Notes under the pieces: model-generated
Database searches by the model: none
What the model was told of the DNA's origin: nothing
Seen by the model: only the letters and a program-made list of their open reading frames with translations
Shown here: positions 40,419 to 45,087 of the stretch, in pieces
Position numbering within the stretch: the first letter of the stretch is position 1
Layout: every line of letters begins with the position of its first letter
Position numbers and translations under genes: made by a program
Source of the DNA: Gemmatimonas groenlandica
GTDB lineage: Bacteria > Gemmatimonadota > Gemmatimonadetes > Gemmatimonadales > Gemmatimonadaceae
Length of the DNA: 64,000 bases
Direction: 5' to 3'
Assembly (NCBI RefSeq): GCF_013004105.1
Contig: NZ_CP053085.1
Span: forward strand, 3,720,001 to 3,784,000

Positions 40419-41765
40419 ATGCGCCACTCCCCGCCAGTACTTTGGACCAAGGGCGTCCTCCTCACGCCGCAGCATCTGCAGGCGCAGGATCGACATCACG
40501 AAGAGACGCTCGCCTTTCAGGTCGGTGCGCTCGCCTTCAGCCCGTGGGGGCTGTCGCAGCTCTCACTCGACTTGGACGCGCTCGCGGGTGGCACACTCGT
40601 CACCACCACGATCGCCGGTCGCTTCGCCGATGGCTTGCTGTTCGACGCACCGTTGGCCGGCGCGACGCCACCGCCCAAGTCGCTGGCGGGTGCCTTCGGC
40701 CCCGATCAGGAGACAGCGCTCGCGTACGTCGCCGTCCCGGAGTACCGTCCGGGTGCGCGCAATGTGGCCCGGCGGGGCGAGTACGCCTCGGCCCGATGGC
40801 TCGCCGATGAGCAGTTGCTGCGCGATGAAACGACCGGCCTGACCGAGCGACCGATCCAGGTGTCGCCGCCGTCGTTGCGCCTGCTGCTGGAGGGTGAGAG
40901 TCTCGAAGGGTACACGGCGATGCCGATTGCCCGGTTGCGCCGTGCGCCCTCGGGCGATCTCACGCTCGATCCGCAGTTCGTCCCGCCGTTGCTCGACCTG
41001 TCGGCGAGCGATGTCATGATGGGCATGATGCGGCGCCTCACCGAACGGTTGTCGGCGCGCAGCGCCGCCCTGTCGGGAAGCCGCCGTCAGCGCAATCAGG
41101 GCTTGGCCGATTTCACCGTCGCCGACGTCGGCAGTTTCTGGCTGCTGTATACCGTGAATACGCACCTGCCGGCGATCCGCCATCTCCATGAGGTGCGACG
41201 CGGTCACCCCGCCGCGCTTTGGGAGGCGATGCTGGCGCTGGTCGGCTCGCTGTCGGCGTTCTCGACGAGTGGCGATGCGCGTTCATTGCCAACCTACGAT
41301 CATCTGCGTCTCGGCGAGGGGTTCTTCGAGCTCGAACGTCGGCTCTATGAACTGCTCGACGGCGCGGTGGTCGATGCGGCGATTGCCTTGCCGCTCAAGC
41401 CGGTGCGCGCGACGCTGCACGCGGTCGCCATCGAACAGGTGAAGTGGCTGGAGGCCCCGCAGTGGTTCCTCGCCGTAAGCGCCCCGCTGCGCCAGCAGGA
41501 GTTGATCCCGAAAGTGTTGCAGGGGTGCAAGGTCGGTGCAGCCGACGTGGTCGACACGCTGATCCGTCAGGCGCTGCCCGGTATCGAGCTCGCGCACATC
41601 TCGTCGCCACCCTCGGCCGTTCCGGTGAAGCTGGACTTTCAATACTTCGCGATCCGAAAGGCGGGGAGCGCGTGGGATGCGATCGAGCGTGCGCGCAACC
41701 TGGCCGTGTACGTCCCGGCCGAACTGGTCGACGCGCGGTTCGAACTGGTGATCGTCCTCCGCTAG
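40419..41765 (+). CDS. tssK: T6SS baseplate protein TssK, copy 1
   Basis: Trimeric adaptor that docks the baseplate wedges to the TssJLM membrane complex. The 448-residue protein begins with the shell-domain signature VLWTKGVLLTPQHLQAQDRHHEETL, followed by MPIARLRRAPSGDLTLDPQFVPPLLDL and the C-terminal head-domain segments WFLAVSAPLRQQELI and LKPVRATLHAVAIEQ. It heads the rightward arm. A second, divergent TssK lies at 43672, so the two may form mixed or specialised baseplates. ATG 40419 fits the family start. Confidence 0.93.
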   Translation: MRHSPPVLWTKGVLLTPQHLQAQDRHHEETLAFQVGALAFSPWGLSQLSLDLDALAGGTLVTTTIAGRFADGLLFDAPLAGATPPPKSLAGAFGPDQETALAYVAVPEYRPGARNVARRGEYASARWLADEQLLRDETTGLTERPIQVSPPSLRLLLEGESLEGYTAMPIARLRRAPSGDLTLDPQFVPPLLDLSASDVMMGMMRRLTERLSARSAALSGSRRQRNQGLADFTVADVGSFWLLYTVNTHLPAIRHLHEVRRGHPAALWEAMLALVGSLSAFSTSGDARSLPTYDHLRLGEGFFELERRLYELLDGAVVDAAIALPLKPVRATLHAVAIEQVKWLEAPQWFLAVSAPLRQQELIPKVLQGCKVGAADVVDTLIRQALPGIELAHISSPPSAVPVKLDFQYFAIRKAGSAWDAIERARNLAVYVPAELVDARFELVIVLR

Positions 41766-41823: not shown

Positions 41824-42660
41824 TCACTTCAGCTTGGGTGCGCTGACCGACGGCGCCTTGGGGACGGCCGGCTGCGTTGGCACCTTGGGCTGCGGCTTCC
41901 GCAGCACAAAGACAACGACGATGACGGCGAGCAGGATCACGACGTTGATGACGACGATCAGCCCCATCGGGATGGATCGTTTGGCCGGCGCGGCAGCGGT
42001 CGGCTTGGGGGCGGCCGGCGTCGGAGCCGGCGGTACGACCGGTGCGGCCGCCTGACTGATCAGCCGGGTGAAATCACTCGGTCCCGACGTGGCCTTGGGC
42101 GCGGCGCCGCCCATGGGTGAGAGCGGCGTGGCGCCGCCCTGACCGAACATCGGCGGCGGCAGCACGCCGGGCGGTAACCCGGGTGCTGCGCCCATCGGCG
42201 AGGCCGCCAGCGGTGAGGCTGCCATGGGCGAGGCGCCCATCGGCGAGGCGCCCAGACCCGAGCCGGCGGGCGTGACCGACGGCGTAATCGGGAGCGGCGC
42301 GACGGGCGCGCTGGAGGCCGGTGCCGGCGAACCGAAGAGCGGCGAGTTGCCAAAGACGGGCGACACGTTGCCCGGCGACGGTGGCGTCGGCGCAAACGGC
42401 GCCGGCGCGGAGGGGGCGGGCGACGACGGACTGGGGGCCGCCATGAAGCTTGGCGGCGTCACGATGCCGGGCATCGAGGACGCCGGCGGCACGTTCGGTG
42501 TCGGTACGCTGCCGAGGGGAGACCAGGCGGCGGGTGCGACGGGCGACGGCGGTAGCGCGCTCGGGAGCGGCGCCGCGGTGGACGGGGCGGAGAACATCTG
42601 CGTGAACTCGCCAGGTCCGCTCTTGGGCGGCGGCGGGGCCGGCGCGGGTGGCAGAGTTGA
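41824..42660 (-). CDS. C-terminal part of a proline-rich, membrane-anchored T6SS-locus protein (split by an embedded adapter)
   Basis: This frame continues the gene that starts at 43513 but is shifted relative to it because of the adapter at 42661-42693. The first internal ATG is at 42597, yet the frame is already coding upstream of it (STLPPAPAPPPPKSGPGEFTQMF). It is a long Pro/Ala/Ser-rich disordered region with two more copies of the FTxMF-type motif (GEFTQMFSAP; SDFTRLISQ), GASPM/AASPM repeats and one transmembrane helix near the end (MGLIVVINVVILLAVIVVVFVL), then a short tail. It is therefore probably a tail-proximal membrane anchor. Function unknown. Confidence 0.7.
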   Translation of the reverse strand, partial: STLPPAPAPPPPKSGPGEFTQMFSAPSTAAPLPSALPPSPVAPAAWSPLGSVPTPNVPPASSMPGIVTPPSFMAAPSPSSPAPSAPAPFAPTPPSPGNVSPVFGNSPLFGSPAPASSAPVAPLPITPSVTPAGSGLGASPMGASPMAASPLAASPMGAAPGLPPGVLPPPMFGQGGATPLSPMGGAAPKATSGPSDFTRLISQAAAPVVPPAPTPAAPKPTAAAPAKRSIPMGLIVVINVVILLAVIVVVFVLRKPQPKVPTQPAVPKAPSVSAPKLK

Positions 42661-42693
42661 TCGTCGGCAGCGTCAGATGTGTATAAGAGACAG
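42661..42693 (+). other. Illumina Nextera read-1 adapter embedded in the assembly
   Basis: These 33 bases are identical to the Nextera transposase adapter (tcgtcggcagcgtc followed by the 19-base mosaic end agatgtgtataagagacag). On the opposite strand it translates to the well-known contaminant peptide SYTHLTLPT. It interrupts a coding sequence and shifts its frame, so this is an assembly error, not a natural insertion. An unknown amount of true sequence may be missing here. Confidence 0.98.
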
Positions 42694-43513
42694 GTTCCGT
42701 TGGAGGCCGATACGCCGGCATTCCGCCTTGTGTCGTGTTGAGCGACGGATACTGATCTAATGATGGCGTCTCTTGTGCCAACATTGGTGGGATTTCGCGA
42801 ACGGGGACAGGCGCGGGAACCGGCGCCGCCGGGATACTGGGTGCCCCGAACATCTGCGTAAACGCCCCCGGCGCGGCCGGAGCGGGAGCCGGAGCAGGGA
42901 TGGGAGCAGGCGCAGGCGCAGGCGTCGGCGCGGCGGCCGCTGCCGGTGCTGCCGGTGCTGCCGGTGCTGCCGGTGCTGCGGGAATGCTGGGCGCGCCGAA
43001 CATCTGTGTAAACGCCCCCGGCGCGTTTGCGGCTCCGGGTGCAACGATGACCGGCGGGGCTATCGGCGGGGCTATCGGCGGGGCCACGGGCGGCTCAACC
43101 GGTGCGGCGACAACAGGTGGCAACTCGACCGGTGCCACCTCGATCGGTTGCGCCGCGTCCGGCGCGGCGATCACCGGCGCCGGCACCATCGGTTCCACCA
43201 GCGGCGCCACGTCGCCGGGCGGCACACGAGCGGCCAGCCAGCCGGGAAACGAGGTCAGTCCCGCCAAGAACTCGGTCACGATCGCAAAGCCCGACGGCAG
43301 CGTCGCGGTTTCGAGCACGCGGTTCTTGTCGGCACCCGGAAGGCGCGTGAGCATCGTGCGCAGCCGGTCCACATCCTCCGGGCCAGCGGCATCGGCGAGG
43401 TGCACCATCACGACACGACCGGTCGCCAGCTCCTGCGCGTTGTGGCTGCGAATGCCGTCGTCTACCGCCACGCACTTCAGGAGGCGGTAGCGGGCATTGA
43501 AATCTTCGCTCAT
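42694..43513 (-). CDS. N-terminal part of the proline-rich T6SS-locus protein, kinase-N-lobe-like domain
   Basis: From ATG 43513 the first 100 residues (RYRLLKCVAVDDG...ELATGRVVMVHLADA...LETATLPSGFAIVTEFLAG) read like a degenerate protein-kinase N-lobe without a catalytic loop, so a pseudokinase-type fragment is my best guess. After it comes Pro/Ala-rich linker with two copies of the motif APGAFTQMFGAPSIPAAP. Native coding ends at the adapter (42693). The open frame that continues to 42074 is out of register with the true gene. Its place between two tssK genes suggests a T6SS regulatory or baseplate-tethering role, unproven. Confidence 0.7.
42939..42974 (+). repeat. 9-base tandem repeat in the proline-rich gene
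   Basis: Four tandem copies of gctgccggt encode AAP-type repeats on the leftward strand, in the linker between the two FTQMFGAP motifs. Confidence 0.8.
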
Positions 43514-43671: not shown

Positions 43672-45087
43672 ATGCGACTGACCTCACCGCCGTCCCGTCG
43701 TGTCGTCTGGGAAGACGGCATGCACATCGCGCCGCAGCACTTCCAGGCGCAGCGTCGCTATCAGGAAGATCAATCGAGCCGGACGCTCGACCTGCTCTTC
43801 CCCTTCGCCTATGGATTGTCGGCCGTGGCCCTCGATGCCGACGCCCTCCAGAATGGCACCCTCGCGCTGGTGCATGCCCGCGGGGTCCTTCCGGATGGTA
43901 CGGTCTTCCATACACCCGACGCGGATCCGTCGCCGCCCCCGAGTGCGCTGGCCGAACGGTTCTCGCCAACGCGCGACGCGCACGTGGTCTATCTCGCGTT
44001 GCCGCGCTGGCGTACCGATGCGGCTAATGTGGATCACCTCGACGAGGAGGCGGGCGCGCGTCAGCCGTTCGACGCGAACGCCACACCGCTGCGCTTTCAG
44101 GCCGTCGAGGAGATGGTGATCGACGAGTCGACGGGAGCCGATCCGTTGCGGGTGCGCTTCGCCGCGCGCAATCTGCGCCTCCTGCTCGACGACGAGCGCA
44201 CTGACGAATTCGTTTCGATGCCGATCGGGCGCGTCCGGCGTGATGGACGCGGACAGTTTCAGGTGGACGGCGATTTCATTCCGCCGGTGCTCCAGTTGGC
44301 CGCCTGCGATGCGCTGCTCGAACTCACGCGACGAACGGTGAGCTTGCTCGAGGCCAAGGGCAGTGCCTTATCGGCCACGATGTCGAGCGCGCCGTCGGGC
44401 GCGTCGGGTGGTGCGGCGGCGTACGTGGGCAACGAGCTCGCCACGCGGTGGTTGTTGCATGCCGTGCGCTCGGCCGATGCGCCGCTGCGGCATTTGCTGC
44501 TCACGCGACGCGCGCATCCGGAACGGTTGTTTCTCGAGTTGTCGCGTCTGGCTGGCGCGCTGTCGACGTTCGCCATGGGCGGACAGTTCCGCGACCTGCC
44601 GATCTACGATCACGATCATCTGACGGACGTCTTCGCGGCGCTCGAGCTGCAGCTGCGGGCGCACCTCGACGTGGTGATCTCCGCCCGCGCCATCGTGGTG
44701 CCGTTGGCCGCGTCGACCGACGTGCTGCATGTGGCCACGCTGTCCGACGCACGCTGCTTCGAGCCCGGCACCCGTTGGTTTCTCGGCGTGCGCGCTGACG
44801 TGGGGCGAGCCGAGCTCGTGGATCGCGTGCAGCGGCTGACCAAGACCTGCGCCAGCAAGTTCGTCCTCGAACTGGTGCGTCGCGCGTTCAACGGTCTCAC
44901 CACCGAGCATATCCCGACTCCGCCCGCAGGACTCGCGCCGAAGCCCGATCTGACGTATTTCGAGCTCACGCTGGCCGGTCCCTGTGCGTTGTCGATCACG
45001 GAGAGCCGAGAGATCGGCGTGTACGTGCCCGATGCATTGCCGGGTGCCTATCTGGAAGTCGCCATCCTGTTGCCGTCGTCGTCGTAA
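43672..45087 (+). CDS. tssK: T6SS baseplate protein TssK, copy 2
   Basis: A second TssK of 471 residues. It shares the family start (VVWEDGMHIAPQHFQAQRRYQEDQ), FVSMPIGRVRRDGRGQFQVDGDFIPPVLQL and the C-terminal WFLGVRADVGRAELV and YFELTLAGPCA segments with copy 1. Overall the two are clearly diverged rather than recent duplicates. It is followed 24 bases later by tssL and then tssM, so this copy is in the membrane-complex operon, while copy 1 stands upstream alone. An insertion of small residues (SSAPSGASGGAA) near residue 240 is specific to this copy. Confidence 0.93.
   Translation: MRLTSPPSRRVVWEDGMHIAPQHFQAQRRYQEDQSSRTLDLLFPFAYGLSAVALDADALQNGTLALVHARGVLPDGTVFHTPDADPSPPPSALAERFSPTRDAHVVYLALPRWRTDAANVDHLDEEAGARQPFDANATPLRFQAVEEMVIDESTGADPLRVRFAARNLRLLLDDERTDEFVSMPIGRVRRDGRGQFQVDGDFIPPVLQLAACDALLELTRRTVSLLEAKGSALSATMSSAPSGASGGAAAYVGNELATRWLLHAVRSADAPLRHLLLTRRAHPERLFLELSRLAGALSTFAMGGQFRDLPIYDHDHLTDVFAALELQLRAHLDVVISARAIVVPLAASTDVLHVATLSDARCFEPGTRWFLGVRADVGRAELVDRVQRLTKTCASKFVLELVRRAFNGLTTEHIPTPPAGLAPKPDLTYFELTLAGPCALSITESREIGVYVPDALPGAYLEVAILLPSSS

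Follow-up and report, generated by a model that had tools for sequence, protein, structure and literature searches.

The closest described counterparts of the sequence reported here are the read-through remnants of Nextera (Tn5 tagmentation) libraries found in public genomes. From a scan of public genome contigs, at least 126 copies of the 33-base read-1 adapter on at least 120 stretches were compared. Among the matches listed, 120 of the 126 copies lie at most 60 bases from the outer contig end, an 8-base index and the P5 end CTACAC stand ahead of most of them, and the mosaic end faces the insert in all 126. The 33-mer is also present in 26 phage and eight plasmid records, and a search of 5,426 complete Escherichia coli genomes gave no match. 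Internal copies occur in finished sequences as well: in Escherichia phage vB_EcoM_WFK (MK373775.1, 149749-149781) the same 33 bases lie inside a split gene, and a hypothetical protein (QBQ77264.1) has been annotated across them. The worry that such a remnant may give rise to false proteins is therefore realistic. The adapter is also internal in the finished Klebsiella plasmids NZ_CP073907, NZ_MH643786, CP058799, NZ_CP040712, and NZ_CP040714. A literature search for surveys of Nextera contamination found no directly usable paper.

The copy described here lies in a 64,000-nucleotide stretch (hereafter the window) of the chromosome of the Greenland bacterium Gemmatimonas groenlandica TET16, whose type-strain deposit is DSM 110279. 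It has the identical 33 bases and the same insert-facing orientation as the public copies, but it sits within a closed chromosome, unlike the 120 of 126 listed copies that are near a contig end; it differs from the vB_EcoM_WFK case in that the latter concerns a phage tail-fibre gene and another laboratory. The plus-strand 33-mer TCGTCGGCAGCGTCAGATGTGTATAAGAGACAG (Table 1) matches at 33 of 33 positions, with no mismatches, the sequence that we take, in name and role, to be the Nextera read-1 adapter, just as the initial annotation had proposed; the number of matches expected in shuffles is zero. It is present as a single copy in the 5,179,092-bp one-contig genome. Its 19-bp mosaic end occurs once genome-wide, even with two mismatches allowed, and the 12-mer CTGTCTCTTATA is found only at this site. 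Genome-wide searches for other library sequences returned one chance-like, three-mismatch match to the Nextera read-2 adapter and no match to the PacBio SMRTbell stem. A P5-plus-index pattern, too loose to discriminate, gave 77 matches at one to two mismatches in ordinary coding-like sequence. None of these is a convincing further library remnant.

The adapter is confirmed as a library artefact and an assembly error, not biology. A real insertion of Tn5 type in the living cell, whether natural or from a mutant library, might be read into the mosaic end, which belongs to the engineered Tn5 end. Against this, the 14-nt tail is synthetic, one end alone is present with no transposon body, and the flanks (left CAGAGTTGA, right GTTCCGTTG) contain no 9-bp target duplication; we regard such an event as vanishingly improbable.

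Table 1. Features at and around the adapter, in window coordinates
Feature	Position	Strand	Remarks
Flanking TssK (type VI secretion baseplate)	40419..41765	+	PF05936 3.7e-126, TIGR03353 1.6e-107
True C-terminal half of interrupted gene	41824..42652	-	GEFTQMFSAP, GPSDFTRLISQAAAPVV, C-terminal membrane segment; tblastn to the same seven relatives as the N-terminal half, order and strand kept
False-start ORF, 257 aa	41824..42597	-	Starts within the C-terminal half, at an internal ATG (42597)
False ORF, 479 aa	42074..43513	-	True N-terminal half followed by the adapter peptide VSYTHLTLPT and an out-of-frame tail
AGAGTTGA, probable i5 index remnant, at least partly not genomic	42653..42660	+	One mismatch from AGAGTAGA; suggestive only
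Nextera read-1 adapter, not genomic	42661..42693	+	14-nt tail TCGTCGGCAGCGTC and 19-bp Tn5 mosaic end AGATGTGTATAAGAGACAG; exact match, single in genome
True N-terminal half of interrupted gene	42695..43513	-	Conserved domain MSEDFNARYRLLK... followed by a proline-rich part with GAFTQMFGAP repeats; 60-73% identical to the intact copies of seven Gemmatimonas genomes
Second flanking TssK	43672..45087	+	PF05936 8.7e-119, TIGR03353 4.7e-101

The eight bases flanking the adapter on its outer (left) side read AGAGTTGA, which differs at one position from the common Nextera index AGAGTAGA; that index precedes 16 of the at least 126 public copies. Only 0.2% of the 8-mers in the window come as near to any of the 14 indices seen. 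The P5 end CTACAC was looked for ahead of these eight bases and not found, the preceding bases being GGTGGC. Judged by its letters, with one mismatch and no P5 beyond, AGAGTTGA is suggestive of an index stub. Because the index match is one mismatch off and GGTGGC stands in place of CTACAC, the left border of the foreign sequence is approximate. Homology to the nearest relative starts about seven bases beyond the adapter, in a stretch that is variable and proline-rich.

On the minus strand, the adapter is read as ...PTEPVSYTHLTLPTINS... within the 479-aa ORF, so that the contaminant peptide SYTHLTLPT predicted by the initial annotation does appear, as VSYTHLTLPT; a search of the literature for SYTHLTLPT found none. 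That annotation had also held that the adapter splits one gene into two frames. The split and the two frames are real (43513 = 1 mod 3; 42660 = 0 mod 3), and the frame of the C-terminal half is closed by a TGA within the adapter (42673-42675). The adapter is not what causes the shift: its 33 bases are 11 codons and hence cannot by themselves change the frame. The two halves of the gene are additionally out of register, by a net excess of bases equal to 1 mod 3 or, equivalently, by two missing bases: either the foreign sequence extends past the adapter or a small number of genomic bases have been lost. GC content beside the junction is 0.75-0.76, compared with 0.657 for the window. Users of the ORFs as they stand would meet one protein of 479 aa whose tail is nonsense and another that is truncated.

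Comparison with the genus addresses what lies on either side of the join. In seven relatives, both halves of the gene are found in one open frame of 539-655 aa, with neither break nor adapter at the corresponding point, and in all seven the gene is flanked on each side by a TssK gene of the other strand. Adapters are often found at contig ends, so any join across one is suspect, and it had been cautioned that the two sides here might be chimeric, that is, drawn from different places in the genome. That concern is mostly removed: both sides match one gene, with order, strand, and TssK neighbors kept in the seven relatives, and the two TssK genes are ~1.9 kb apart in the window, within the ~1.8-2.3 kb seen in the relatives. 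We consider a chimera very improbable. Since the gene is intact and syntenic between two TssK genes in seven relatives, the join is collinear, with neither a large chimera nor a large deletion. A small loss within the variable proline-rich stretch at the join is possible. In one relative (G029), the homologous gene shifts frame just before the C-terminal membrane segment (...PEAAPPGSRHTGQGNRCPNK...), which reflects either a sequencing error or a real mutation.

The published methods offer a route by which the adapter could have entered. The TET16 assembly is a PacBio-Illumina hybrid produced with Unicycler 0.4.8 in hybrid mode, from Illumina reads of 150 bases that were cut by ten bases on the left and 30 on the right "to remove adaptors" (PMC7844134). 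No adapter-matching step is described there, the library kit is not named, and "Nextera" is not in the text (PMC7844134). By arithmetic from the stated lengths, a read from an insert shorter than ~85 bases would still contain all 33 adapter bases once cut in this way; fixed-length trimming gives read-through adapter a direct way to persist. In Unicycler, the bases of a contig are those of the short-read graph, and long-read consensus serves only for bridging dead ends (PMC5481147). The use of PacBio reads in the published assembly is thus no refutation of an artefact, because where contigs are bridged their sequence still derives from that graph.

Taken in order, a read of a short Nextera fragment lying in the gene's N-terminal half would have run past the end of the insert into the adapter and then the index, and the fixed 30-base right trim would have left the adapter in short-insert reads. 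The adapter would then have formed the terminus of a short-read contig within this gene, which is of very high GC content and low complexity (a stretch of 75% GC). As the mosaic end faces right, the cap would be on the right-hand contig, which carries the N-terminal half. Hybrid bridging by long reads would have linked this end with the neighboring contig, so that the adapter and the probable index stub stayed in the chromosome. That the 33 bases are library adapter and not chromosome is nearly certain; that a contig ended exactly at the adapter site, and the order of the assembler events, we infer.

The chief rival in detail is that the adapter entered during polishing, in a contig (long-read or short-read) that had been correct until then. 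Unicycler's last step is indeed to polish with the same short reads, using Bowtie2 and Pilon (PMC5481147), and incompletely trimmed reads at this step would account for a single internal copy. Yet contig-end capping is the dominant public pattern, and a joined contig end accounts better for the frame imbalance and the index-like stub, so that insertion by Pilon seems rather unlikely. The verdict of an artefact would be unchanged by it.

Whichever step was responsible, the reference genome of a type strain needs correction, as a conserved gene in a type VI secretion cluster is broken in it, and the error is worth reporting to the owners of the record. It also provides a clean, documented case in which fixed-length trimming before hybrid assembly led to an adapter inside a "complete" chromosome. 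There is nothing novel in the adapter, the gene is otherwise ordinary, and the biological interest is low. The interrupted gene has no match in Pfam or NCBIfam. In eight of eight Gemmatimonas genomes, the gene sits between two TssK paralogues that lie on the other strand; its conserved product is proline-rich and has a membrane segment at the C terminus. It may be a putative, undescribed accessory part of the Gemmatimonas type VI secretion system, a reading that we hold tentatively and with somewhat less than even confidence. The two flanking TssK paralogues are 33-36% identical across the copies in relatives.
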